This document shows, one piece after another, positions 4 through 13,856 of a DNA stretch of 64,000 nt. Numbering within the stretch: position 1 is the first letter of the stretch; each line of letters opens with the position of its first letter. Origin of the DNA: Pelagerythrobacter marensis (GTDB taxonomy: Bacteria > Pseudomonadota > Alphaproteobacteria > Sphingomonadales > Sphingomonadaceae). The stretch is taken from the NCBI RefSeq assembly GCF_036700095.1, contig NZ_CP144918.1:2109001-2173000 (forward strand), read 5' to 3'. The translations under genes were made by a program, and so were the position numbers. The notes beneath the pieces are model-generated. The model made no database searches, was not told the DNA's origin, and was given only the letters and a program-made list of their open reading frames with translations.

Positions 4-795
4 TCACGGGGCGCCTGCGGCGAGCGGGCGCTCGCTCGCCAGGTCGGGGCCGGACTGCGGCACCCTGGCTGCTTCCAGAGCCGGTCCGATCAGGATCACG
101 GCGGGGCCATGGCCCAGCACCGACCGGGCGGCGATCGGCAGCAGGTCGAGCCGGCTATGGAATCGGCGCTCGCCGGGCAGGCTGGCGTTTTCCACCAGGG
201 CGACCGGGGTTGCCGGGTCGAGTCCCGCCGCGATCAGCTGGTGCGCGATATGCCCCGCCATTGCCTTGCCCATGTAGATCGCCAGCGTGGCTTGGGGATC
301 GGCCAGGGCTTTCCAGTCGATGTCCGCCCCTTCCCCGGCGCAGGCATGTGCGGTCATGAATGTCAGCGCCCGGGCCTCTCCCCGCAGCGTCAGCGGGACG
401 GCGAGGCTCGCCGCGGCGGCCGAGGCTGCGGTAATCCCCGGACAGATGCGCACCGGAATGCCCGCCGCCCGGCACGCCGCGAGTTCCTCGGCCGTTCGGG
501 CGAAAATTGCCGGATCGCCGCCTTTCAGGCGCACGACTCGTTGTCCGGCCAGCGCGGCGGCCACGATCATCCGGTCGATCGCCGCCTGGCTCCGCGAATG
601 GCGGCCGGCGCGCTTGCCCACCGGAACCAGCCGGGCACCCGGGCCGACCAGTTCCAGGACGCCGGGGCCGACCAGCGCATCGTGAAAGACAACGTCGGCC
701 AGGGCGAGCACCCGTTCCGCCTTGCGCGTCAGAAGGTCGGGATCGCCGGGGCCGGCCCCGACCAGCCATACGGTGTGCGGCTTGAAGTCGGTCAT
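4..795 (-). CDS. cobA: Uroporphyrinogen-III C-methyltransferase (SUMT)
   Basis: A 263-aa SAM-dependent methyltransferase that converts uroporphyrinogen III to precorrin-2, the precursor of siroheme, which the NirB of the same operon needs. Family motifs are visible: VGAGPGDPDLLT at residues 12-23, then KGGDPAIFAR and PGITAASAAAA. There is no fused CysG dehydrogenase/chelatase domain, so later siroheme steps must be encoded elsewhere. The start at 795 was chosen over the longer frame because its ATG forms an ATGA overlap with the nasA stop. It is the last gene of the nirB-nirD-nasA-cobA operon. Confidence 0.95.
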   Translation of the reverse strand: MTDFKPHTVWLVGAGPGDPDLLTRKAERVLALADVVFHDALVGPGVLELVGPGARLVPVGKRAGRHSRSQAAIDRMIVAAALAGQRVVRLKGGDPAIFARTAEELAACRAAGIPVRICPGITAASAAAASLAVPLTLRGEARALTFMTAHACAGEGADIDWKALADPQATLAIYMGKAMAGHIAHQLIAAGLDPATPVALVENASLPGERRFHSRLDLLPIAARSVLGHGPAVILIGPALEAARVPQSGPDLASERPLAAGAP

Positions 796-3356
796 ATGGC
801 AGGCTCCATCGTGGGGCGGGATTCCAGCATCCGGGCAATTACGGGGCGACAACTGCCGCAGTTCGTCCCGGCCCTGGTCGCGGCGCCGACGGCGCCGGTG
901 TCGCGGGCGCCGGCAGCGATCGCGGCGGCAATCTGCCGTTCGCCGACATCATGGCACAGGCAGACCAGCGGCCCGTTGTCGGGCGCGGGGACGGCGGGAC
1001 GCCCGGCAAGCCACTCGGCCCCCGTGCCAGGCGTGCCGAGCCGATCGGCGATCCAGTCGCGCGAGGGCAGGGTGCCGCGGCGAGTCACGAACAGCGCGGC
1101 GGCCAGCGCCCCCGCGTCGTCGGGCACGGCAATTCTTCGCATACCGCGTTCGCGGTCGGCCGCTTCTATCCGGGGACCGGGGGGCAACAGGGCATCGCAG
1201 TCGACCGCGCCGAATCCTGCGAGTTCGGTCAGCCATCCGTGTGCGACCCGCGAGCGGACCCAATAGGGCGCCTGCGGTGTCACGGGCTCGCGCGAGGCGA
1301 GAAATGCGCGCCAGTCCGGCACCACTGGCGCAACGCGAGCGGGCGTGTTCTTGAACCCCGGCTGCCCGGACAGCGGATCTGTGGCCGGCTGGACCAGTTT
1401 CCCGGTCCGCCCGCCTCCGGCCAGCATATCGGTCCAGTGCATGGGGACGAAGATTTCGCCCGGTCGCTGGCTCTCGCTGGTCGCGATGCGGAACAGCTCT
1501 GCGCCGAATGGCGTCTCGATTCGCCCCAGGCCCCCTTCGACCAGACCGTAGCGGCGGGCGTCGACGGGGTGCATTTCCAGTATCGGCTCGCGTCGATGGT
1601 GCGAAAGCCGGGGGCTGAGACCGGTGCGGGTCATCGTGTGCCACTGGTCGCGATAGCGGCCGGTGTTGAGGCGGAGCGGGAACCCGGGATCGGGCGCCCG
1701 GGCGGCAGGCGGGCTCACGGCGACGATCCGCGCCTTGCCGTCGGCGGTGGGAAAGCGGTGGGCGAGGGGGTGCCGCCCACCCCATTGAAACGGCTGCATT
1801 TCGTTATAGCGGCGATCGCTGCATCCGGCCCAGTCGGCCAGATCCAGACGTTTCCCGTGCTGGCGCGCGAGCCGGGTCATTGCGGCATATTCGCGGAACA
1901 CTTCGGCGGGCGAGGCCCATGCGAAGGCATCCCGCCAGCCCATGCGCGCGGCGACATCGGCGACGATGCGCCAGTCGGCCCGGGCTTCGCCGGGGGGTGG
2001 AAAGAGGCGGCGCTGGCGGCTGACCCGGCGTTCCGAATTGGTGACCGTGCCGTCCTTCTCCCCCCAGGCCAGCGCCGGCAGGCGGACATGGGCCAGGCGC
2101 GCGGTGTCGGTCTGCGCGATCACGTCCGACACGACGACGTGGGGGCAGCGCGCCAGCGCCTCGCGCACGAACCCGGCATCGGGCATCGAAACCGCGGGGT
2201 TGGTCGCCATTATCCAGAGGAACCTGACTTCGCCCGAATGGACCGCGCGAAACAGGTCCACCGCTTTCAGGCCCGGTTCGCGGCAGAGCCGGTCGGTGCC
2301 CCAGAAGCGGGCGACCGAGGCGCGCTCGGCAGCCGAGAAGCCGAGATGGCAGGCAAGCGTGCTGGCAAGCCCGCCGACTTCGCGCCCTCCCATGGCGTTG
2401 GGCTGACCGGTGATCGAGAAAGGCCCTGCGCCGGGCCGGTTGATGCGGCCGGTCGCGAGGTGGAGATTGATGATCGCATTGCCCTTGTCGGTGCCGCCGA
2501 CCGACTGGTTGGCGCCCTGGCTGAACATCGTGATCGCGCGCGGGCTGGCGGCGAACAGGTCGGCGAGCTGCATGAAAAGCGTGCGATCGATGCCGGGATC
2601 GCGGTTGAGATCGTCCCAGAAGCCGGACGGCACCGAACAGCGGCTGCGCAGGAAAGCCTCGTCGAGCGCACCGCGGCGGCGCATCTCGGCGAGCAGCGCG
2701 GTGAACAGCGCCGTGTCGCCGTCGGGCGCGAGCGGGACGTGGAGGTCCGCCTGTTCGGCGGTTTCCGTCCGTCGCGGATCGATCACCACCAGTTTCGTGC
2801 CGCGCCGTTCGCGCGCCGCCTCCATCCGCTGCCACACGACGGGGTGGCACCAGGCCGTGTTCGATCCGACCAGCAGGATCAGATCGGCCTCGGCGATATC
2901 GTCATAGGAGCAGGGAACCACGTCTTCGCCCCACGCGCGATTGTGCGCGGCGACAGCGCTGGCCATGCACAGGCGCGAATTGGTATCGATGTTCGCGCTG
3001 CCGACGAAGCCCTTCATCAGCTTGTTGGCGACATAGTAATCTTCGGTCAGCAACTGGCCGGAAACGTAGAACGCCACGCTGTCCGGCCCGTGCCGTTCGA
3101 TGCAGTCGCGCATATGCGCAGCGACCCGATCGAGCGCCTCGTTCCACGAGACGCGCGCGTCGCCGATCATGGGGTGCAGCAGGCGCCCTTCGAGGCCGAC
3201 AGTCTCGCCCAGATGGGTGCCCTTGGAACAGAGCCGGCCGCCATTGGCCGGGTGGTCGTCGTCGCCCGCGATGGCGACCGAACGCGGGCCAGTGACTTCT
3301 GCGCGAATGCCGCAGCCGACCCCGCAGTAGGCACAAGTCGTGCGAACCGGGTCCAT
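792..3356 (-). CDS. nasA: Assimilatory nitrate reductase, molybdopterin catalytic subunit
   Basis: An 854-aa molybdenum (bis-MGD) enzyme reducing nitrate to nitrite in the cytoplasm. The N-terminus carries a 4Fe-4S ligand set (Cys8, Cys11, Cys15, Cys43). The middle holds the molybdopterin oxidoreductase and dinucleotide-binding domains. The C-terminus has a fused BFD-like [2Fe-2S] domain with Cys799, Cys801, Cys833 and Cys836, seen in other assimilatory enzymes and probably an electron entry site. The gene lies 6 bp after nirD and overlaps cobA by 4 bp, so it sits in the nitrite reductase operon. No separate NasB reductase subunit is present here; the electron donor is unknown. Confidence 0.95.
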   Translation of the reverse strand: MDPVRTTCAYCGVGCGIRAEVTGPRSVAIAGDDDHPANGGRLCSKGTHLGETVGLEGRLLHPMIGDARVSWNEALDRVAAHMRDCIERHGPDSVAFYVSGQLLTEDYYVANKLMKGFVGSANIDTNSRLCMASAVAAHNRAWGEDVVPCSYDDIAEADLILLVGSNTAWCHPVVWQRMEAARERRGTKLVVIDPRRTETAEQADLHVPLAPDGDTALFTALLAEMRRRGALDEAFLRSRCSVPSGFWDDLNRDPGIDRTLFMQLADLFAASPRAITMFSQGANQSVGGTDKGNAIINLHLATGRINRPGAGPFSITGQPNAMGGREVGGLASTLACHLGFSAAERASVARFWGTDRLCREPGLKAVDLFRAVHSGEVRFLWIMATNPAVSMPDAGFVREALARCPHVVVSDVIAQTDTARLAHVRLPALAWGEKDGTVTNSERRVSRQRRLFPPPGEARADWRIVADVAARMGWRDAFAWASPAEVFREYAAMTRLARQHGKRLDLADWAGCSDRRYNEMQPFQWGGRHPLAHRFPTADGKARIVAVSPPAARAPDPGFPLRLNTGRYRDQWHTMTRTGLSPRLSHHRREPILEMHPVDARRYGLVEGGLGRIETPFGAELFRIATSESQRPGEIFVPMHWTDMLAGGGRTGKLVQPATDPLSGQPGFKNTPARVAPVVPDWRAFLASREPVTPQAPYWVRSRVAHGWLTELAGFGAVDCDALLPPGPRIEAADRERGMRRIAVPDDAGALAAALFVTRRGTLPSRDWIADRLGTPGTGAEWLAGRPAVPAPDNGPLVCLCHDVGERQIAAAIAAGARDTGAVGAATRAGTNCGSCRPVIARMLESRPTMEPAI

Positions 3357-3362
3357 CGGGAT

Positions 3363-3737
3363 TCAGGCCGCCTGCGGTTCGGCTGCCGGACCGTCCGCCG
3401 GTCGCGGCGCCACCACGGCTTCGCGCAGAAGATAGATCCGTCCGCAATCGATCTTGAGCGGGATGGTCGGGACGCAGCCTTCGTCGTCACCCAGGACCTG
3501 GCCGCTTTTCAGCGAGATGCGCCAGTTGTGCAGCGGGCAGGTGACGCTGTCGCCGTGGACGATGCCCTGGCTGAGCGGCCCCTGCCGGTGCGGGCACTTG
3601 TTGACGAGCGCGTAGAACTCGCCGCGCATCGTATGAAAAACCGCGATTTCCTCGCCGCCGATCACCGGCAACGTGGCCGCCATGCCCGCCTCGATCTGCG
3701 TCGTCGGGCCCAGGTCGAGCCATTTCGCTTCCATCAT
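3363..3737 (-). CDS. nirD: Nitrite reductase small subunit, Rieske-like
   Basis: A 124-aa Rieske-fold partner of NirB. The two Rieske motifs are visible as NKCPHRQ (Cys48, His50) and CPLHNW (Cys67, His70), with ligands intact, so a 2Fe-2S cluster is expected; in some NirD proteins these ligands are lost. The start is a double Met, and the first ATG (3737) makes an ATGA overlap with the nirB stop. The tail after about residue 108 is Ala/Pro rich and probably disordered. nasA follows after 6 bp. Confidence 0.94.
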   Translation of the reverse strand: MMEAKWLDLGPTTQIEAGMAATLPVIGGEEIAVFHTMRGEFYALVNKCPHRQGPLSQGIVHGDSVTCPLHNWRISLKSGQVLGDDEGCVPTIPLKIDCGRIYLLREAVVAPRPADGPAAEPQAA

Positions 3738-6220
3738 GCGTACTCCTTTCCGGCGGGGACGACGGTGGCGAGGTGGCCGTGCAGGTCGCGCCGCTCGCCG
3801 GCTGCGCGCTTCGCCCATGGGTCGTCCTGCATAAAGCGCTGCGAATGGCGGAACCGTGCCGCCAGCCGCCGCACCGCGTCGGGATCGTCGAACAGCTGCG
3901 CCTTGATCCAGTCGAGCCCCTTGCGCTCGAGCCAGGGGGCGGTCCGTTCGAGGTAATGCGCATCCTCGCGGTAAAGCTGGATGAAGGCGGCGCAGTGCTC
4001 CAGCGCCGCTTCCTCGGTTTCGACCTTGCACAGCAAGTCGGTGGCGCGGACTTTCATGCCGCCGTTGCCGCCGACGTGCAGTTCGTAGCCGCTGTCGACG
4101 CAGACCACGCCGAAGTCCTTGATCGTCGCCTCGGCGCAGTTGCGCGGACAGCCGCTGACCGCGATCTTGAACTTGTGCGGCATCCAGCTGCCCCAGGTCA
4201 TCTGTTCGATCCTGATGCCAAGGCCGGTCGAATCCTGCGTGCCGAAGCGGCACCATTCGCTGCCGACGCAGGTCTTCACCGTGCGCAGCGATTTGCCATA
4301 GGCGTGGCCGGAGACCATGCCCGCGGCGTTCAGGTCGGCCCAGACGGCGGGCAGGTCTTCCTTGCGAATGCCGAAAATGTCGAGCCGCTGGCCGCCGGTG
4401 ACCTTGACCATGCGGGCATCGTATTTCTCGACCACGTCGGCGATCGCGCGCAGTTCCTTCGGATTCGTAACGCCGCCCCACATCCGCGGGACAACCGAGT
4501 AGGTTCCGTCCTTCTGGATATTGGCGTGCAGGCGCTCGTTGACGAACCGGCTTTTCTGGTCGTCCTCGTACTCGCCCGGCCAGGCGCACAGCAGGTAATA
4601 GTTCAGCGCCGGGCGGCACGCGGCGCAGCCGTCGGGCGTGGTCCAGTGCAGTTCCTGCATGACCTGCGGGATCGCTTTCAGTTCCTTCTCCAGGATCAGG
4701 CGGCGCACGTCGTCGTGCGTGAAGCTGGTGCATTTGCACATGCTGGCCGGCCCGCTTTCGACTTCGCCGCCCAGTGTCAGCGACAGGAGGCTTGCGACGA
4801 GATCGGTGCACGAACCGCAGCTCGCGCTCGCCTTGCATTGCGAGCGCACGGCATCGAGGCTGTGCGCGCCGGCATCGATGCACCGGACGACCTGGCCTTT
4901 GGAAACGCCGTTGCAGCCGCAGATTTCTGCGTCGTCCGAAAGGGCGGCAACGGCGGCATTAGGGTCGGCAAGGGCGCCTCCGCTGGCAAAGGCCTGGCCG
5001 AAGATCAGCCCTTCGCGGATGTCCGAGACATCCTCCTCCTTCCTCAGCAGGTCGAAATACCAGCTGCCGTCCGCCGTATCGCCGTACAGCACAGCGCCGA
5101 TCAGCTTGTTGTCTTTCAGAACCACGCGTTTGTAGACCCCGCGCGCGCCATCGCGCATCACGATGTCCTCGCAATCTTCCCCACCCGAGAAATCGCCGGC
5201 GGAAAACACGTCGATGCCGGAAACCTTGAGCTTGGTGGACGTGACCGAGCCGGCATAACCGGTGGACGCGCCGGTCAGGTGATCGGCCAGAGCGCGGCAC
5301 ATCTCCCACAGCGGGGCGACGAGGCCGTAACAGGTTCCGCGATGCTGAACGCATTCGCCGACCGCCAGAACGTCCGGGTCGGAAGTGACCATGTGGTCGT
5401 CGACCACGATGCCGCGCTCGCATTCGATCCCGGCGGTCCTGGCCAGTATCGTCGCCGGGCGGATGCCGACCGCCATGACCACGATGTCGGCGGGGATCTC
5501 GCGCCCGTCCTTCAAACGCACGGCGCCGACGTGGCCGTCTTTCTCGACGATTTCCTCGGTATCCGCGCCGGTCAGGATCGTCTGCCCGCGCCGCTCCAGC
5601 TCCTGCTTCAGCAGCCAGCCGGCCGCTTCGTCGAGCTGCCGCTCCATCAGCGTCGGCATGAGGTGGACGACAGTGACTTTCATGCCGCGCAGCGAAAGGC
5701 CGTGCGCCGCCTCCAGCCCCAGCAGCCCGCCGCCGATCACGACCGCGTTACCGCCGCGTTCCGCAGCGGCGAGCATTCTGTCGACATCGTCGAGATCGCG
5801 GAACGTCACCACGCCCGGCAGGTCGCGGCCCGGCACCGGGATGATGAACGGGTCGGAGCCGGTCGCAATCAACAGCTTGTCGTAAGGCGTGACGCGACCG
5901 GAGCGGCTGACCACCGTCTTGCGCGCGCGATCGATGTGATCGATCGGGTCGCCGGAAACCAGCGCGATGCCGTTTTCTTCATACCATTCGGCGGTATTGA
6001 GCACGATCTCGTCGAACGTCTTCTCGCCGGCGAGCACGGGCGAGAGCATGATACGGTTGTAATTCACCCGCGGTTCGGCGCCGAAGATCGTGATCTCGTA
6101 ACGATCGCGGTCGCGCTCGAGGATTTCCTCCACCGCGCGGCAGCCGGCCATGCCATTGCCGATTACCACGAGCTTTTCGCGCGCCGGGATCATGTCCTTC
6201 AGCCGGGTCTGTGCGTTCAT
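3734..6220 (-). CDS. nirB: NAD(P)H nitrite reductase, large siroheme subunit
   Basis: An 828-aa enzyme reducing nitrite to ammonium with NAD(P)H. Order of domains: FAD/NAD(P)H pyridine nucleotide-disulfide reductase (about 12-290, starting with a GNGMAG dinucleotide fold), a BFD-like 2Fe-2S domain rich in Cys (about 420-490), then the nitrite/sulfite reductase half-domains. Siroheme/4Fe-4S ligands are Cys651, Cys657, Cys691 and Cys695 (SGCPRNC). The start at 6220 was preferred to a frame 13 codons longer because GGAGG lies 6-7 bases before this ATG. A terminator-containing leader precedes the gene, so expression is probably set by antitermination. Confidence 0.95.
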   Translation of the reverse strand: MNAQTRLKDMIPAREKLVVIGNGMAGCRAVEEILERDRDRYEITIFGAEPRVNYNRIMLSPVLAGEKTFDEIVLNTAEWYEENGIALVSGDPIDHIDRARKTVVSRSGRVTPYDKLLIATGSDPFIIPVPGRDLPGVVTFRDLDDVDRMLAAAERGGNAVVIGGGLLGLEAAHGLSLRGMKVTVVHLMPTLMERQLDEAAGWLLKQELERRGQTILTGADTEEIVEKDGHVGAVRLKDGREIPADIVVMAVGIRPATILARTAGIECERGIVVDDHMVTSDPDVLAVGECVQHRGTCYGLVAPLWEMCRALADHLTGASTGYAGSVTSTKLKVSGIDVFSAGDFSGGEDCEDIVMRDGARGVYKRVVLKDNKLIGAVLYGDTADGSWYFDLLRKEEDVSDIREGLIFGQAFASGGALADPNAAVAALSDDAEICGCNGVSKGQVVRCIDAGAHSLDAVRSQCKASASCGSCTDLVASLLSLTLGGEVESGPASMCKCTSFTHDDVRRLILEKELKAIPQVMQELHWTTPDGCAACRPALNYYLLCAWPGEYEDDQKSRFVNERLHANIQKDGTYSVVPRMWGGVTNPKELRAIADVVEKYDARMVKVTGGQRLDIFGIRKEDLPAVWADLNAAGMVSGHAYGKSLRTVKTCVGSEWCRFGTQDSTGLGIRIEQMTWGSWMPHKFKIAVSGCPRNCAEATIKDFGVVCVDSGYELHVGGNGGMKVRATDLLCKVETEEAALEHCAAFIQLYREDAHYLERTAPWLERKGLDWIKAQLFDDPDAVRRLAARFRHSQRFMQDDPWAKRAAGERRDLHGHLATVVPAGKEYA

Positions 6221-6376
6221 CTCTGCCTCCGCGGGGTCGAGCCCCGATTGCGCACGCAAAAAAGCCGCCAGGTCCTGCCCAAAGGCGAGACTGGCGGCGT
6301 CGTTGCCACGTTTTTGCGATTCTTCGTTCGAAAGCGACCGGAATCGTCCGGCGTTGGACGGGTACGCTTGTCGTCG
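6221..6376 (-). ncRNA. ANTAR/NasT-type antitermination leader of nirB operon
   Basis: The untranslated leader between a predicted promoter and nirB. Reading the minus strand it has hairpin P1 at 6360-6345 (stem CGTCC/GGACG, loop AACGCC), a 35-base linker, hairpin P2 at 6309-6294 (stem GTGGC/GCCGC with one G-U, loop AACGAC), and then a terminator. Both loops are six bases with A at 1 and G at 4, the known recognition feature of ANTAR regulators such as NasT. P2 uses the same GCCGC bases as the 5' arm of the terminator, so the two folds exclude each other. The nasS/nasT genes are not in this window. The ends are inferred from the promoter and the start codon. Confidence 0.85.
6258..6298 (-). 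terminator. Intrinsic terminator in the nirB leader
   Basis: On the minus strand GCCGCCAG pairs with CTGGCGGC around a 19-base loop and is followed at once by six T. It stands 38 bases before the nirB ATG, so it would stop transcription of nirBD-nasA-cobA unless hairpin P2, which shares its first arm, is stabilised. Confidence 0.9.
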
Positions 6377-6512: not shown

Positions 6513-7766
6513 TCAGATGCGCACGCCCTGCACCGCCGCGCCCCATGTTGTGCGCCAGCGGCTTTTCACGGCCGTCAGCCCGAGCAGGGCGATGAGGGCG
6601 ATCGCGGCAAAGACAAGAAAGCCCAGTTGCGGACTGCCGGCATATTGCTTGGCCAGGCCGAGCGAGCTGGCGAGGAAGAAGCCGCCGATCCCGCCGCCGC
6701 AGCCGACCAGCCCGGTCATGACCCCGATTTCCTTGCGGAAGCGCTGCGGAACGAGCTGGAACACCGCCCCGTTGCCGGTCCCGAACGACAACATCGCGAC
6801 CACGAAGAGACCGAGAGCGAGTGCCAGCGATGCCGGCCCGGTGCTGATCGCGACGAGCGCGCCGGCGGCGATGGCATAGACTGCGGTCAGCGTGCGGATT
6901 CCGCCAAACCGGTCTGCCAGAGCGCCACCCAGCGGCCGCACGAGCGAGCCGGCAAAGACACAGCCTGCGGCGCAGTATCCGGCCTGCACCGCAGTCAGAC
7001 CGAACTGATCGACGAAATAGATCGAAAGCGAGGCTGCAAGTCCCACGAAGCCGCCGAACGTGACCCCGTAAAACAGCATGAACCACCATGCGTCGCGGTC
7101 GCCCAGCGGCTGGAGATAGGCCGAAAGGCGCATCGGGGCAGGCTGTTCGGGGGAATCCTTGGCCATCGCGAGATAGAACGCGAGAACGATGGCCAGCGGG
7201 ATGCACGCCAGTCCGAGCACGCCTGTCCAGCCGACGGCGACGGCCAGCGCGGGGGCGAAGAGCGAGGCGATGACCGTGCCCGAATTGCCCATGCCGGCAA
7301 CCCCCATGGCCTTGCCCTGGTGTTCTGGCGGGTACCAGCGGCTGGCGAGGGGCAGTGCAACCGCGAAGCTGGCACCGGCGAAGCCGAGCACCAGCCCGAG
7401 CGCGATCGTTCCCGAGAACGATCCGACCCCCAGCAGCCAAGCCGCCAGCAGGCCGGCGATGACGATCACCTGCCCGATTGCGCCGGTCTTCTTGGGCCCG
7501 ATGCGGTCGCCGAGAAAACCCATCGGAATGCGCAGAAGCGCCCCGGCCAGAGTGGGGACGGCGACCATGAACCCTTTCTGCGCCGCGTTGAGGCCCAGGT
7601 CCGCCGCGACGAGCGGGGCCAGCGGGCCGAGTATGACCCAGACCATGAAGGCGAGATCGAAATAGAGGAAGGCCGCAACCAGCGTGGGCCAATGACCCGA
7701 TTGCCAGAAACCGGCTTTGCCCGTTCGCGAGGAAGGGCCGTCGGAGGAAGCGAAACTTGCCATCAT
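6513..7766 (-). CDS. narK: MFS nitrate/nitrite transporter, NNP family
   Basis: A 417-aa transporter with about twelve hydrophobic segments that brings nitrate into the cell, or exchanges it for nitrite. Two Gly-rich nitrate-signature-like stretches are visible (AGMGNSG and VGCGGGIGG), one in each half. The start at 7766 was chosen because AAAGGA lies just before it; the longer frame has no such site. The gap to the nirB leader holds the promoter of that leader. No convincing narK promoter is visible in the 98 bp up to the divergent kinase gene, which raises the possibility that transcription comes from the far leader at 9592-9771. Confidence 0.93.
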   Translation of the reverse strand: MMASFASSDGPSSRTGKAGFWQSGHWPTLVAAFLYFDLAFMVWVILGPLAPLVAADLGLNAAQKGFMVAVPTLAGALLRIPMGFLGDRIGPKKTGAIGQVIVIAGLLAAWLLGVGSFSGTIALGLVLGFAGASFAVALPLASRWYPPEHQGKAMGVAGMGNSGTVIASLFAPALAVAVGWTGVLGLACIPLAIVLAFYLAMAKDSPEQPAPMRLSAYLQPLGDRDAWWFMLFYGVTFGGFVGLAASLSIYFVDQFGLTAVQAGYCAAGCVFAGSLVRPLGGALADRFGGIRTLTAVYAIAAGALVAISTGPASLALALGLFVVAMLSFGTGNGAVFQLVPQRFRKEIGVMTGLVGCGGGIGGFFLASSLGLAKQYAGSPQLGFLVFAAIALIALLGLTAVKSRWRTTWGAAVQGVRI

Positions 7767-7864
7767 GCTGTCCTTTCGATGCTTGACGTGGGGCCCCCGC
7801 GGGAGAAGCTCGCGCGGGCGGGCGCAGCGCGCACGTGCACGTGAGAGGCGGGGGAAACCGGGCA

Positions 7865-9553
7865 ATGCGGAATCGGAACGAACTGGTGTTCGCGGCGGGC
7901 TTTGCCAGCGAGGCCGGCCGGCGCGAGCAAAACGAGGATTTCGGCGCGGTCTATCTCGGCACGCCGCTGGAGCGCGCGCGCCACGGTGCCGTGGCCGCCG
8001 TGGCCGACGGGGTGAGCGAGGGGCGGGGCGGGGGGGAGGCCGCGGAACTCGCGGTCAGCGCTCTGATCGAAGGATTTTACGCCATGCCCGAAACGCTCGG
8101 CGCGGCGCGGGCGATGGAAAGGCCGATGGCCGCTTACAACCGGTGGCTGCATTCCCAGAGCCGCGGAGAAACCATGCGCGGGGCAGCGACGACGTTCACG
8201 GCCTTGGCGCTGCGCGGCCGCCGGGCGGATATCGTTCACGTCGGAGACAGTCGCGCTTGGCGTTTTGCTGGCGAACGCTTGGTGCAGCTGACGACAGACC
8301 ACGTTCGGCCGGAGCCGGACCTGCGCCATGTCCTGATCCGGGCGATAGGCCTCGAACCGGAACTGCGCCTCGACCATCTTGCCATCGAACTGGCGGAACA
8401 CGACCGTCTGGTTCTGACCACCGACGGGGTTCATGGCCCGCTGGGCGAACGCCGCATGGCCGCGGTCCTCACGGCGAACGGTTCGGCCGAAACCGCGGCC
8501 GCGGCGCTGGTCCGCGAGGCGCTGCACGCCGGCGGGCGCGACAATGCCACGGCAGTCGTGATCGATGTCGTTCGTCTTCCGCCGCCCGATTACGATTTCG
8601 TGCTTGCCGGGATCGAAGGTTTGCCGGCCGTTGCTGCTCCCCGCCCGGGCACGACGATCGACGGGTTTCGTATCGATCGGGTGATCAGCGAGGGGCGTTA
8701 CGCCGTTCTCCTGGCCGGATGGGACACGGAAACGGGAGAACCGGTGGCGCTGAAGTTTCCGCGCCAGGGCGCACTGGCCGACCACGCCATCCGCATGGCC
8801 TTCGCCCGCGAGATGCTGATCGCCAGGCGAGTGGACAGCCCGTTCCTCGCCCCTTCGCACCCGGTGCGTCCGGGACGCCAGACCGCGCTCTACGGTGTCC
8901 AGCCCCTGCTCGAGGGGGAGACGCTGGAAGCGCGCCTGGCGCAAGGCAACCTTCCGCTGGCCAAGGCGCTCGACCATGCGATCGAGCTGACCCGCGCGGT
9001 GGCGGCGTTGCACCGGCTCGAAATCGTCCATCGCGATATCAAGCCGGAAAACTGCATCCTGACCGCAGACGGCTTGAAGCTGATCGACCTCGGCGTGGCG
9101 CGGTTGCCGCGTGTCGAGGACTTCCGTGGAGACGAGATACCCGGCACGCCGGGCTACATGGCGCCCGAACAGTTCGACGGGCACGGCGGCGATGCCCAAA
9201 CCGATATCTTCGCGCTCGGCGTCACGCTCTACCGGCTTTTTTCGGGGGCCTGGCCCTTCGGCGAACAGGAGGCGTTCCAGCGCCCGCGATTCGCCACGCC
9301 GGCGCCGCCTTCGCGCCACCGCCCGGAGATCCCCAGCTGGCTCGACGATGCGATCCTGACGGCCATCGCACCCCAGCGGGAGGCGCGTTTCGACGACGCG
9401 GTGGGGCTTTTGCGCCGTCTCGAAGGCGGGGGGGCCGTTCCGCGCGCAATCCCGCGGCACGTCCCCCTTGCAGAGCGCGATCCGGTGCGGTTCTGGCAGG
9501 TCGTCAGCGCCGCCCTTGCGATCGCACTGGTCCTTGTCCTGATACTGCGCTGA
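7865..9553 (+). CDS. PP2C phosphatase-Ser/Thr protein kinase fusion, C-terminal anchor
   Basis: A 562-aa protein. A PP2C phosphatase domain (about 5-230) shows REQNED at 20-25, VADGVSEG and GGRDNATAV. A protein kinase domain follows (about 260-520) with the ATP lysine Lys297, HRD at 389-391, a DLG motif from Asp408 and GTPGYMAPE. A single membrane segment ends the chain (about 540-560), so both domains face the cytoplasm. Homologues of this fusion sit inside nitrate operons of other Proteobacteria on the same strand as narK and nirB (for example in Pseudomonas). Here the gene is inverted. Its substrates are unknown. The start at 7865 was taken because the PP2C fold begins right after it; 7835 is possible. 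Confidence 0.9.
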   Translation: MRNRNELVFAAGFASEAGRREQNEDFGAVYLGTPLERARHGAVAAVADGVSEGRGGGEAAELAVSALIEGFYAMPETLGAARAMERPMAAYNRWLHSQSRGETMRGAATTFTALALRGRRADIVHVGDSRAWRFAGERLVQLTTDHVRPEPDLRHVLIRAIGLEPELRLDHLAIELAEHDRLVLTTDGVHGPLGERRMAAVLTANGSAETAAAALVREALHAGGRDNATAVVIDVVRLPPPDYDFVLAGIEGLPAVAAPRPGTTIDGFRIDRVISEGRYAVLLAGWDTETGEPVALKFPRQGALADHAIRMAFAREMLIARRVDSPFLAPSHPVRPGRQTALYGVQPLLEGETLEARLAQGNLPLAKALDHAIELTRAVAALHRLEIVHRDIKPENCILTADGLKLIDLGVARLPRVEDFRGDEIPGTPGYMAPEQFDGHGGDAQTDIFALGVTLYRLFSGAWPFGEQEAFQRPRFATPAPPSRHRPEIPSWLDDAILTAIAPQREARFDDAVGLLRRLEGGGAVPRAIPRHVPLAERDPVRFWQVVSAALAIALVLVLILR

Positions 9554-9591
9554 ATGCACCGGACGTTCCTCCGCCTGTTTGCAGCGCACAC

Positions 9592-9636
9592 AAAAAAGCC
9601 GCCTCGGACCCGGTCTGGAAACCGGATACGGGCGGC
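9592..9636 (-). terminator. Intrinsic terminator of the orphan leader
   Basis: On the minus strand GCCGCC pairs with GGCGGC around a long loop that itself can pair (CCGGT with ACCGG) and is followed by six T. There is no T run on the plus strand, so this is not the terminator of the kinase gene. Confidence 0.8.
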
Positions 9637-9711
9637 GACGTTGCCACGCGCTGTCTGCAATATGACCGGCCGGCCGCGTGACCATCCGCCAGTGGATGGA
9701 AAGCCGGCAAT
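9592..9711 (-). ncRNA. Second ANTAR/NasT-type leader, orphaned
   Basis: The same architecture as the nirB leader. P1 lies at 9698-9683 (stem CATCC/GGATG, loop ACTGGC) and P2 at 9647-9632 (stem GTGGC/GCCGC, loop AACGTC), separated by a 35-base linker, exactly as in the first copy. Both loops have A1 and G4. P2 again shares its 3' arm with the terminator. No minus-strand gene follows directly; read-through would run antisense to the kinase gene and reach narK 1.8 kb on. The two P1 loops differ while stems and spacing are kept, which suggests selection rather than a recent copy. Confidence 0.8.
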
Positions 9712-9718
9712 CGCGCGC

Positions 9719-9748
9719 ATGGTAGGCATGCGGGACGACATTTGCCAA
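9719..9748 (-). promoter_or_regulatory. Predicted promoter of the orphan leader
   Basis: A -35 TTGGCA (9748-9743) and a -10 TACCAT (9724-9719), 18 bp apart, the same spacing as at the nirB leader. Just upstream lies ATGCTGCAATTGCGAAAAG (9771-9753), the relative of the motif upstream of the first leader. The -10 is weak by itself; the shared layout is the main support. Confidence 0.5.
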
Positions 9749-9999
9749 GCCTCTTTTCGCAATTGCAGCATTATGCCGGTGCCGCGTTTCGTAAGGCAGG
9801 GCGGCCAGGGGGCCCCGACAGGCCGAAAATGGGCGGGGCGCCCGTTACAAAACGGTCAGGTTTTAAATGGCTTGTATGGCGGACGGCGGATCGGCAATCC
9901 GCGCCGCTTCGGCCTTGCTGAAAACGATTCCAGCGTACCGAAGGGCATACCGTCGCCGGGACGGCCACCGGCCTTGCAACGGTCGGCGGCAAGAATGGC

Positions 10000-10074
10000 T
10001 GGCTGGGGTGGCAGGATTCGAACCTGCGCATGGCGGTACCAAAAACCGCTGCCTTACCACTTGGCTACACCCCA
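10000..10074 (-). tRNA. tRNA-Gln (anticodon TTG)
   Basis: A full cloverleaf of 72 bases plus an encoded CCA. The acceptor stem is TGGGGTG-type, pairing with the 3' ACCCCA. The anticodon stem GCGGT/ACCGC holds loop TTTTGGT, giving TTG (glutamine), and the T loop is GGTTCGAATCC. The discriminator base is G. It follows the GST gene on the same strand and has its own predicted promoter. Confidence 0.97.
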
Positions 10075-11790: not shown

Positions 11791-13856
11791 CCGAGAAAAC
11801 CGACCACCCCTTCTTCGATCGACGCACGCACGGCTTCGTGCGCGTCGCCACCGCCACCCCGCACGTTCGCACCGCCGACGTGGCCGGGAACGTGGAGGGC
11901 ATTCTTGCCGAATTGCGCAAGGCGCACAGGGCCGGCGCCGACCTGGTGCTGTTCCCCGAGCTTTCGCTGTCGTCCTATGCGATCGACGACCTCCACCTGC
12001 AATCGGCGCTGCTCGATGCGGTCGAGCGCGGCGTGGCCGACCTGGTCGCCGCGAGCAAGGAGCTTTCGCCGGTGGCGGTGGTCGGCGCCCCGCTGCGGCG
12101 CAACGGGCGGGTATACAATTGCGCGCTGGCGATCGCCGGCGGGCGCTTGCTGGGCGTCGTGCCCAAGAGCTTCCTGCCAAACTACCGCGAATTCTACGAG
12201 AAGCGCTGGTTCGCGCACGGTCGCGGATGCATCGGGCTGGCGATCGAGGTGAACGGTGAGAGCGTGCCGTTCGGCACCGATCTGCTGTTCGAAGCGCCGG
12301 CGTTGCCCGGTTTCTGCTTCGCGATGGAAATCTGCGAGGACGTCTGGGCGCCCGATCCGCCCTCGACCCGGGCGGCGCTGGCCGGGGCGACGATCGTGCT
12401 CAATCTTTCCGCCTCCAACATTACCATCGGCAAGTCGGACGAACGGCACCTGCTCTGCCGCGCCCAGTCGAGCCGCGCGGTCTGCGCCTATGCCTATTCC
12501 GCCGCGGGCCACGGCGAGAGCACGACCGACCTTGCGTGGGACGGGCAGGGGATGGTTTACGAACTCGGCGACCTGCTGGTCGAAAGCACGCGCTTCGATC
12601 TCGAACCCGAGCTGTGCCTGGCCGACGTCGATACCCGCCGCATCCTGGGCGACCGGATGCGGATGCAGACTTTCGGCGACGCGGCGGAAGCGGCGGGCCG
12701 GCCCGAGGATACGTTCCGCCGCGTGCGGTTCGAACCATCGGCCGCGCCCGGGCCGGACGACCGCCTGCTGCGGCCGATCCGCCGCTTCCCCTTCGTTCCC
12801 AACCGCGCGCACAAGCTGGACGAGGATTGCTACGAAGCATTCAATATCCAGGTCGATGCCCTGCTCCGGCGCTTCCGCGCGACCGGCGGGAAGCACATGG
12901 TGATCGGGATTTCGGGTGGGCTCGATTCGACCCACACGCTCCTGGTCGCGGCCAAAGTCTGCGACCGGCTGGGCCTGCCGCGCACGACCATCCGCGGCTA
13001 CACGATGCCGGGTTTCGGCACCTCCGAGGGCACGAAATCGAACGCCTGGAAGCTGATGAAGGCAATGGGCATCGCGGCCGAGGAAATCGATATCAAGCCG
13101 GCCGCCCAGCGAATGCTGGAAGATATCGGCCATCCGTTCGCCGATGGCGAGCCGGTTTACGACACCACGTTCGAGAACGTTCAGGCCGGCCTGCGCACCG
13201 ATTACCTGTTCCGCCTTGCCAGCCAGCATTCGGGTTTCGTGCTCGGCACCGGCGATCTGTCGGAACTGGCGCTCGGCTGGTGCACTTACGGCGTCGGCGA
13301 CCAGATGAGCCACTATGCGGTCAATGCGGGGGTGCCCAAGACCCTGATCCAGTATCTGATCCGCTGGGCCATTCGGACCGATCAGTTCGACCCGGAAACC
13401 GATGCCGTGCTGGAAGCGATCGTCGCCACCGAAATCAGCCCCGAGCTGGTGCCGGTGGGCGAGGATGGCGAGATCCAGAGCACCGAGAGCGCGATCGGCC
13501 CTTACGAGTTGAACGACTTCTTCCTCCACCATACGATCCGCTGGGGCCATGCGCCCAGCCACGTCGCGTTCCTGGCCTGGCATGCCTGGCGCGACGCCGG
13601 GCAGGGCCTGTGGCCCGCGGAATTTCCCGAAGCCGCGAAGAACGAATACGACCTGGCGACCATCGCCCATTGGCTGGAGCGGTTCCTGCAGCGGTTCTTT
13701 GCCTTCAGCCAGTTCAAGCGCAGCGCGCTGCCCAACGGGCCGAAGGTCAGCCCGGGCGGCGCGCTCAGCCCGCGGGGCGACTGGCGCGCGCCGAGCGATG
13801 CGACCGCCGGCCCATGGGTGGAGGAACTGCGGCGCGCCCTGCCGCCGCCTGCCTGA
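11787..13856 (+). CDS. nadE: Glutamine-dependent NAD+ synthetase
   Basis: A 689-aa two-domain enzyme that makes NAD from deamido-NAD using glutamine nitrogen. The N-terminal nitrilase-type glutaminase has the glutamate in FPELSLSSY, the lysine in VPKSFLPNYREFYE and the nucleophile Cys183 (MEICEDVW). The C-terminal ATP-dependent synthetase has the P-loop SGGLDS at 376-381. The length fits the large glutamine-dependent type. Translation is probably coupled to pncC through the ATGA overlap. Confidence 0.96.
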   Translation: MTEKTDHPFFDRRTHGFVRVATATPHVRTADVAGNVEGILAELRKAHRAGADLVLFPELSLSSYAIDDLHLQSALLDAVERGVADLVAASKELSPVAVVGAPLRRNGRVYNCALAIAGGRLLGVVPKSFLPNYREFYEKRWFAHGRGCIGLAIEVNGESVPFGTDLLFEAPALPGFCFAMEICEDVWAPDPPSTRAALAGATIVLNLSASNITIGKSDERHLLCRAQSSRAVCAYAYSAAGHGESTTDLAWDGQGMVYELGDLLVESTRFDLEPELCLADVDTRRILGDRMRMQTFGDAAEAAGRPEDTFRRVRFEPSAAPGPDDRLLRPIRRFPFVPNRAHKLDEDCYEAFNIQVDALLRRFRATGGKHMVIGISGGLDSTHTLLVAAKVCDRLGLPRTTIRGYTMPGFGTSEGTKSNAWKLMKAMGIAAEEIDIKPAAQRMLEDIGHPFADGEPVYDTTFENVQAGLRTDYLFRLASQHSGFVLGTGDLSELALGWCTYGVGDQMSHYAVNAGVPKTLIQYLIRWAIRTDQFDPETDAVLEAIVATEISPELVPVGEDGEIQSTESAIGPYELNDFFLHHTIRWGHAPSHVAFLAWHAWRDAGQGLWPAEFPEAAKNEYDLATIAHWLERFLQRFFAFSQFKRSALPNGPKVSPGGALSPRGDWRAPSDATAGPWVEELRRALPPPA

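Follow-up and report, generated by a model that had tools for sequence, protein, structure and literature searches.

A putative NasT-type attenuation leader of narK, set apart from its gene by an antisense PP2C-kinase gene, in Pelagerythrobacter marensis

Introduction

Among the closest known counterparts of the element reported here are the RNA leaders that act with NasT and other ANTAR proteins. In Paracoccus, NasS holds NasT until nitrate or nitrite is present, and NasT binds the nas leader RNA (PMC3795266). In Bradyrhizobium, NasT acts as an antiterminator at nosR (PMC6759348). According to the same article, narK-bjgb-flp expression rose when nasT was mutated, although a NasT hairpin is predicted for these genes, so that a NasT-type leader need not mean activation by NasT. 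The features of such leaders have been set out in work on EutV as A1/G4 hexaloops, a second hairpin (P2) that overlaps the terminator, and a linker of limited length (PMC8934654). Two further kinds of arrangement, non-contiguous operons and excludons, have been found by transcriptomics in individual species (PMC7154746).

The locus described here lies in a 64,000-nucleotide stretch of contig NZ_CP144918.1 (positions 2,109,001 to 2,173,000), referred to as the window, whose own numbering is used below unless a locus of another genome is named. On its minus strand, an element at 9592-9771 appears from comparison with relatives to be the leader of narK, from which it is separated by about 1.8 kb of antisense gene. 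It resembles the NasT/ANTAR leaders in the three accounts cited above (PMC8934654, PMC3795266, PMC6759348) in its A1/G4 hexaloops, the overlap of P2 with the terminator, the presence of NasT and NasS in the genome and its nitrate-assimilation neighbours, and differs from the leaders covered there in that some 1.8 kb, occupied by an antisense gene, separates it from its apparent target. With the Staphylococcus aureus non-contiguous operon menE-menC-MW1733-ytkD-MW1731, as outlined in PMC7154746, it shares an opposite-strand gene inside a stretch that would be co-transcribed, with reciprocal regulation predicted; in the window, unlike in that operon, the antisense gene comes after a regulated leader and ahead of any coding gene of the unit, and the gate is a predicted nitrate-responsive terminator. 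The layout also recalls the excludon as that source presents it, with divergent genes, one of which has a predicted long 5' UTR that runs across its neighbour, although in the present case the predicted overlap spans the whole kinase gene and an antiterminator would be the gate. Rli39/aspocR of Listeria and the S-box antisense RNA at ubiG of Clostridium, in the summary given by PMC7154746, likewise depend on a ligand-responsive terminator that follows the 3' end of a gene and decides whether RNA antisense to that gene is made; they differ in that control here would lie with a protein antiterminator instead of a riboswitch, and in that the predicted antisense RNA would double as a transporter mRNA. 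Finally, EutX and Rli55, which PMC8934654 describes as ANTAR-binding sponge RNAs, are dual-hexaloop RNAs with no adjacent target gene, whereas here narK lies downstream and is adjacent in relatives that lack the kinase.

Among the matches listed for open-access PMC full text, judged by titles and the starts of abstracts, no paper on such a nitrate arrangement was found. The layout can be read from the DNA together with a built-in switch, and kinase-less genomes, in which the leader directly precedes narK, provide natural controls that make the question of selection for antisense overlap directly testable. It also offers a first regulatory handle on the PP2C-kinase that adjoins nitrate genes in several other groups. 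If the stronger form of the mechanism proposed below is true, the arrival of nitrate would at a single stroke start transport and shut down the signalling kinase encoded next to it.

Anatomy of the leader

A preliminary description of the window had noted a minus-strand leader after the 3' end of the kinase gene, with an 18-bp promoter spacing, a 35-nt linker, A1/G4 hexaloops and a terminator, and each of these features was confirmed from the sequence. Read in the direction of transcription, the element begins with a conserved motif, ATGCTGCAATTGCGAAAA (9754..9771), which was read from the sequence as a candidate activator site upstream of the promoter; it is identical in the nearest relative, L029, and related elements precede other leaders. 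The sigma70-like promoter that follows, TTGGCA-18 nt-TACCAT (9719..9748), is the sole such site that a promoter scan of 7600-10000 found when both strands were read (mean of 0.2 in shuffles). The first hexaloop hairpin, P1, is CCATCC[ACTGGC]GGATGG (9682..9699), and the second, P2, is GTGGC[AACGTC]GCCGC (9632..9647). The intrinsic terminator GCCGCC...GGCGGC-TTTTTT (9592..9636) was recognized from sequence and folding, and its 5' arm shares GCCGC (9636-9632) with the 3' arm of P2, an overlap that would make the two structures mutually exclusive. A tRNA gene lies at 10003..10074, also on the minus strand.

A leader of the same design precedes nirB (6258..6363 from P1 to the T-run, minus strand), as seen by sequence and covariance model, with P1 CGTCC[AACGCC]GGACG and P2 GTGGC[AACGAC]GCCGC. 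Both leaders carry the six-base A1/G4 loops of ANTAR dual-hexaloop leaders, and in both the loop-to-loop distance is 45 nt, corresponding to a 35-nt linker counted from five inner P1 pairs. These two were the only matches when both strands of the whole 64-kb window were scanned. The relaxed form of the scanner, which overlooks some true leaders, matched in 1/780 dinucleotide shuffles and 5/713 random segments; it demands the loop letters and minimum stems, so these traits are not independent evidence.

Folding energy is no more than mildly unusual: z is -2.0 for the full leader (with 7/200 shuffles equally low), -2.8 for the terminator part and -0.2 for the P1-to-P2 part alone. Among 25 leaders, P1 shows 31 cells of compensatory change against a shuffled mean of 6.4, and the five pairs of P2 are invariant, though both statistics are partly circular because 22/25 rows came from the stem-requiring scan. 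The P1 loop starts with G rather than A in 5/16 distinct kinase-bearing rows of relatives, a point against the proposed function and a count that is itself partly circular, as the scanner also demands loop letters. A generic terminator scan of 7600-10000 returned nothing, the terminator of the leader included, since that scan allows loops of 3-8 only. No Rfam family reached its gathering score for 9592-9771. A TGCTGCA..TGCGAAA or TTTTGCACTTGCGAA-type element was seen upstream of many leaders, with the kinase present or absent, and is possibly the site of a nitrogen regulator.

Neighbouring genes and the genome

By Pfam, the genes around the leader encode a PP2C-kinase fusion, an MFS transporter, NirB, a Rieske-type NirD, a molybdopterin reductase and a tetrapyrrole methylase; we assigned the names nasA, nirD and cobA from these domains and the order of the genes. 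The fusion gene (7865..9553, plus strand; PP2C_2 and Pkinase) lies antisense to the predicted read-through RNA. The predicted target of the leader, narK (6513..7766, minus strand; MFS_1), encodes a nitrate/nitrite-type transporter for which the NCBIfam NarK family TIGR00886 is nearest, at 291.9 bits and slightly under the cut-off of 311.7. Behind the nirB leader follow nirB, nirD, nasA and a cobA-like gene (4..6220, minus strand).

A covariance model built from 25 leaders of one type finds exactly three leaders in the 2.9-Mb genome, all of which had belonged to its training set: the one at 9592-9771, the nirB leader and one near 1641 kb behind the only nasTS of the genome. The genome has a single ANTAR protein, which together with its NasS-like partner maps to 1639-1641 kb. 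In the genus, leaders and an ANTAR protein occur together in 6/7 genomes and the seventh has neither; the leaders of G001, G002 and G003 were outside the training of the model. The nasTS region near 1641 kb holds a second nitrate/cyanate-type cluster (L028 5108-11876; C1 about 1639-1646 kb), in the order nasT, nasS, third leader, porin-like gene, formate/nitrite transporter, collinear second PP2C-kinase and cyanase.

The leader in relatives

The element was compared across 397 genomes of the family, evenly drawn from a larger group. Close orthologues of narK were present in 76/397 genomes (77 matches) and close orthologues of the kinase (E up to 1e-100) in 21/397, the latter spread over 15/96 of the genera sampled. 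The 77 narK rows that were mapped divide into 20 with the kinase and 57 without. Rows without the kinase mostly read nasT-nasS-[leader]-narK: nasS adjoins in 52/57 rows, and by automatic scan the leader stands directly before narK in 45/57. Where the kinase is present, the order is nasT-nasS-[leader]-(kinase, antisense)-narK, and the same scan detects a leader just past the kinase stop, with nasS or another gene on its far side, in 17/21 genomes. As to the remaining four, a leader was recognized by eye in L063, L068 is cut by a contig end that leaves P2 and the terminator, and two (genomes G080 and G054) have atypical hairpins only. By eye, these two atypical loci (L034 8900-8960 and L039 about 9050-9200) share another design, in which a weak terminator comes after a pair of strong hexaloop hairpins.

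The covariance model (E up to 0.1) agrees in large part, with a leader in 15/20 kinase-bearing loci, 8 of which were outside its training (L033, L036, L037, L065, L066, L067, L069 and L070; the match in L036 is weak, E 0.045). It misses the leaders behind the kinase in L035 and L038 and gives two matches elsewhere (L029 707-754 and L035 15879-15966).

From the order with and without the kinase, the element appears to be narK's own leader, with an antisense kinase gene in between. The preliminary description had called it an orphan, which does not hold, as the same leader follows nasS in relatives and directly precedes narK where the kinase is absent. Its excludon-like link, in which read-through would run antisense to the kinase and reach narK, is supported by the comparison of genomes. 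The suggestion that the element is the trace of an inversion was abandoned as far as a recent event in this genome is concerned, since kinase and narK stand back to back in 20/21 kinase-bearing genomes (in G054 the contig stops before narK), and what sets the window apart is the missing nasTS.

Two other readings of the leader were considered. A recent copy of the nirB leader was rejected because 10/11 nirB leaders analysed form a separate clade (98/99), the one of L032 falling outside it, in a leader tree that has weak support at its deeper forks and a number of long branches. A leader of nasT, an idea that arose from the missing nasTS, was rejected because the leader in relatives comes after nasS and not before nasT.

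On the narK tree, the presence of the kinase gene takes 7 changes, 6 of them forced by well-supported branches, and it is found in the same place and orientation each time. Kinase-less L114, in which the leader ends 45 bp before narK, groups with kinase-bearing L031 at a weak fork (94/40). The gap between kinase and narK is about 50-110 bp, except in L062 and L064, where the narK alignment extends further upstream. No coding gene precedes the kinase in the leader-kinase-narK layout of the window; in L062-L064 a collinear porin-like gene follows the leader (in L062 with a weak Pfam match, under the cut-off), and since only 5 bases separate its stop from that of the kinase, a terminator would hardly fit between them.

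The nearest relative and the loss of nasTS

A lack of sequence conservation in relatives, which the preliminary description had named as a refuting condition, is ruled out. Identity with L029 is 103/110 for the leader, higher than the 92/106 for the nirB leader, 83/98 for the gap between kinase and narK, and 30/41 for the bases after the leader terminator. It is also higher than at fourfold sites, which are identical at 210/322 in the kinase and 172/268 in narK. L029 has tRNA-Gln followed by nasT-nasS where the window has its tRNA followed by the leader, from which it follows that nasTS is missing between tRNA and leader in the window; nasTS is also absent beside the leader in L034 and L035. 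Part of the 103/110 identity may predate this loss.

Proposed mechanism

The reading that we favour, with a probability of about 0.68, is that 9592-9771 is a nitrate-responsive NasS-NasT attenuation leader of narK, split off from its gene by the antisense PP2C-kinase, and that the locus is thus a nitrate-gated non-contiguous operon. Without nitrate, polymerase would start near 9712, a position inferred from the promoter, and be halted by the terminator near 9592. When nitrate is present, NasS would let go of NasT, which would bind P1 and P2 and block the terminator. Polymerase would then travel about 1.8 kb along the other strand of the kinase gene, past the kinase promoter region and into narK. 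The outcome would be that narK is on and that the kinase is opposed through transcription interference, antisense pairing or both. For the stronger statement, of a conserved arrangement in which one NasT-controlled terminator governs both the making of narK (in some genera of the whole narK-nirB-nasA operon) and the silencing of the PP2C-kinase by the same RNA, we see roughly even odds.

Predicted read-through to narK

As the preliminary description had stated, no minus-strand gene lies between the leader and narK. A translated 661-aa minus-strand ORF from leader to narK was considered and rejected, since similarly long ORFs oppose nasA and nirB; its frame is aligned with the kinase codons, stops there need TTA, CTA or TCA on the sense strand, and the ORF is taken as an effect of base composition. 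A 1.8-kb untranslated RNA would be open to cutting by Rho, which counts against read-through as far as narK, and the base content (C 0.353 and G 0.336 in the antisense RNA; C 0.337 and G 0.334 in narK) speaks neither for nor against Rho.

The strongest point for read-through comes from L033, L065 and L066, which represent three genera. In each of these loci, the model detects a single leader, which lies behind the antisense kinase. In L033, nirB follows 54 bp after narK; in L065 and L066 the one ORF after narK ends at nirB, and no terminator was seen by eye in the 260 bp before nirB. Without read-through, these narK-nirB-nasA operons would have no nitrate leader among those found. This list of loci omits L031 and L035, which have nirB leaders (in L031 at 13341-13447 by the covariance model and missed by the relaxed scan; in L035 by eye), L034 with its atypical leader and a narK-nirB distance of 26 bp, and L038, where the model places a leader before cobA.

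An alternative that we regard as unlikely is that the leader makes a nitrate-dependent antisense RNA for the kinase only, with read-through ending before narK and narK served by a promoter in the 98-bp gap (7767..7864), an arrangement that would resemble Rli39/aspocR. The identity of this gap with L029, 83/98, is above that of the fourfold sites, so functional sites may be present in the gap, and these might include a promoter of narK in addition to the kinase's. Strict scans of 34 kb of 19 loci found 1 promoter and 2 terminators on the narK strand and 0 promoters and 3 terminators on the kinase strand; since no kinase promoter was found either, the lack of a narK promoter in the strict scan means little, and alphaproteobacterial promoters may evade such a scan, as the kinase's own does. 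If narK had its own promoter there, however, the operons of L033, L065 and L066 would be without any nitrate leader: none was found inside the gap of the window, and neither the scan (20/20 rows, one with a partial kinase) nor the covariance model finds one within kinase or gap. The alternative also has to contend with the kinase-less relatives, in which narK comes immediately after the same leader.

A TTGACG at 7783-7788 (plus strand) faces the kinase, and a TTGAC box facing the kinase is present in most relatives' gaps. Between this box and the kinase start lies a G+C-rich inverted repeat (7789-7864, plus strand), seen as CCTCGC...GCGAGG in several relatives, with folding z-scores from +0.1 to -3.6 in 10 loci; it may serve as an operator or form a hairpin in the 5' UTR. 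A narK promoter within the 5' end of the kinase gene was also considered and rejected, as conservation at fourfold sites is not raised there in 14 orthologues. In the same 14 orthologues, identity at fourfold sites is highest around kinase codons 420-450 (about 9125-9215, plus strand), where it reaches 0.59 compared with an overall 0.49.

Quite unlikely, in our estimate, is a leader that works as a stand-alone small RNA, binding NasT and damping other leaders as EutX/Rli55 does for EutV. The element retains its promoter, hexaloops and terminator, and directly behind it the minus strand has no gene, as such an RNA would have it, but the leader precedes narK in kinase-less relatives and three operons are without another leader that could be found. 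A sponge role may still be a side function of a narK leader. It is very improbable that the element is a mere terminator for convergent nasS and kinase transcripts, in keeping with its site between convergent genes in most kinase-bearing relatives, or a decaying relic after the loss of nasTS, because a promoter and hexaloops would be superfluous in a simple terminator and because the leader is 103/110 identical to that of L029 though the window has no nasS here, an identity that, as noted, may partly be older than the loss.

The kinase in other groups

Of at least 80 contig-scan matches, which were mostly generic kinases, 17 loci were mapped. Among the matches listed, a PP2C-kinase stands beside nitrate genes in Bradyrhizobium, Pseudomonas and Acidovorax. 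In Acidovorax (L170 and L171), an antisense kinase lies inside the nitrate operon, between narK and nirB, and is possibly an independent case; these loci are uninformative on read-through because a terminator-like hairpin precedes nirB and, in L171, a leader precedes narK. In several other groups, including Pseudomonas and Bradyrhizobium, the kinase gene among the matches listed is collinear with narK and located after it.
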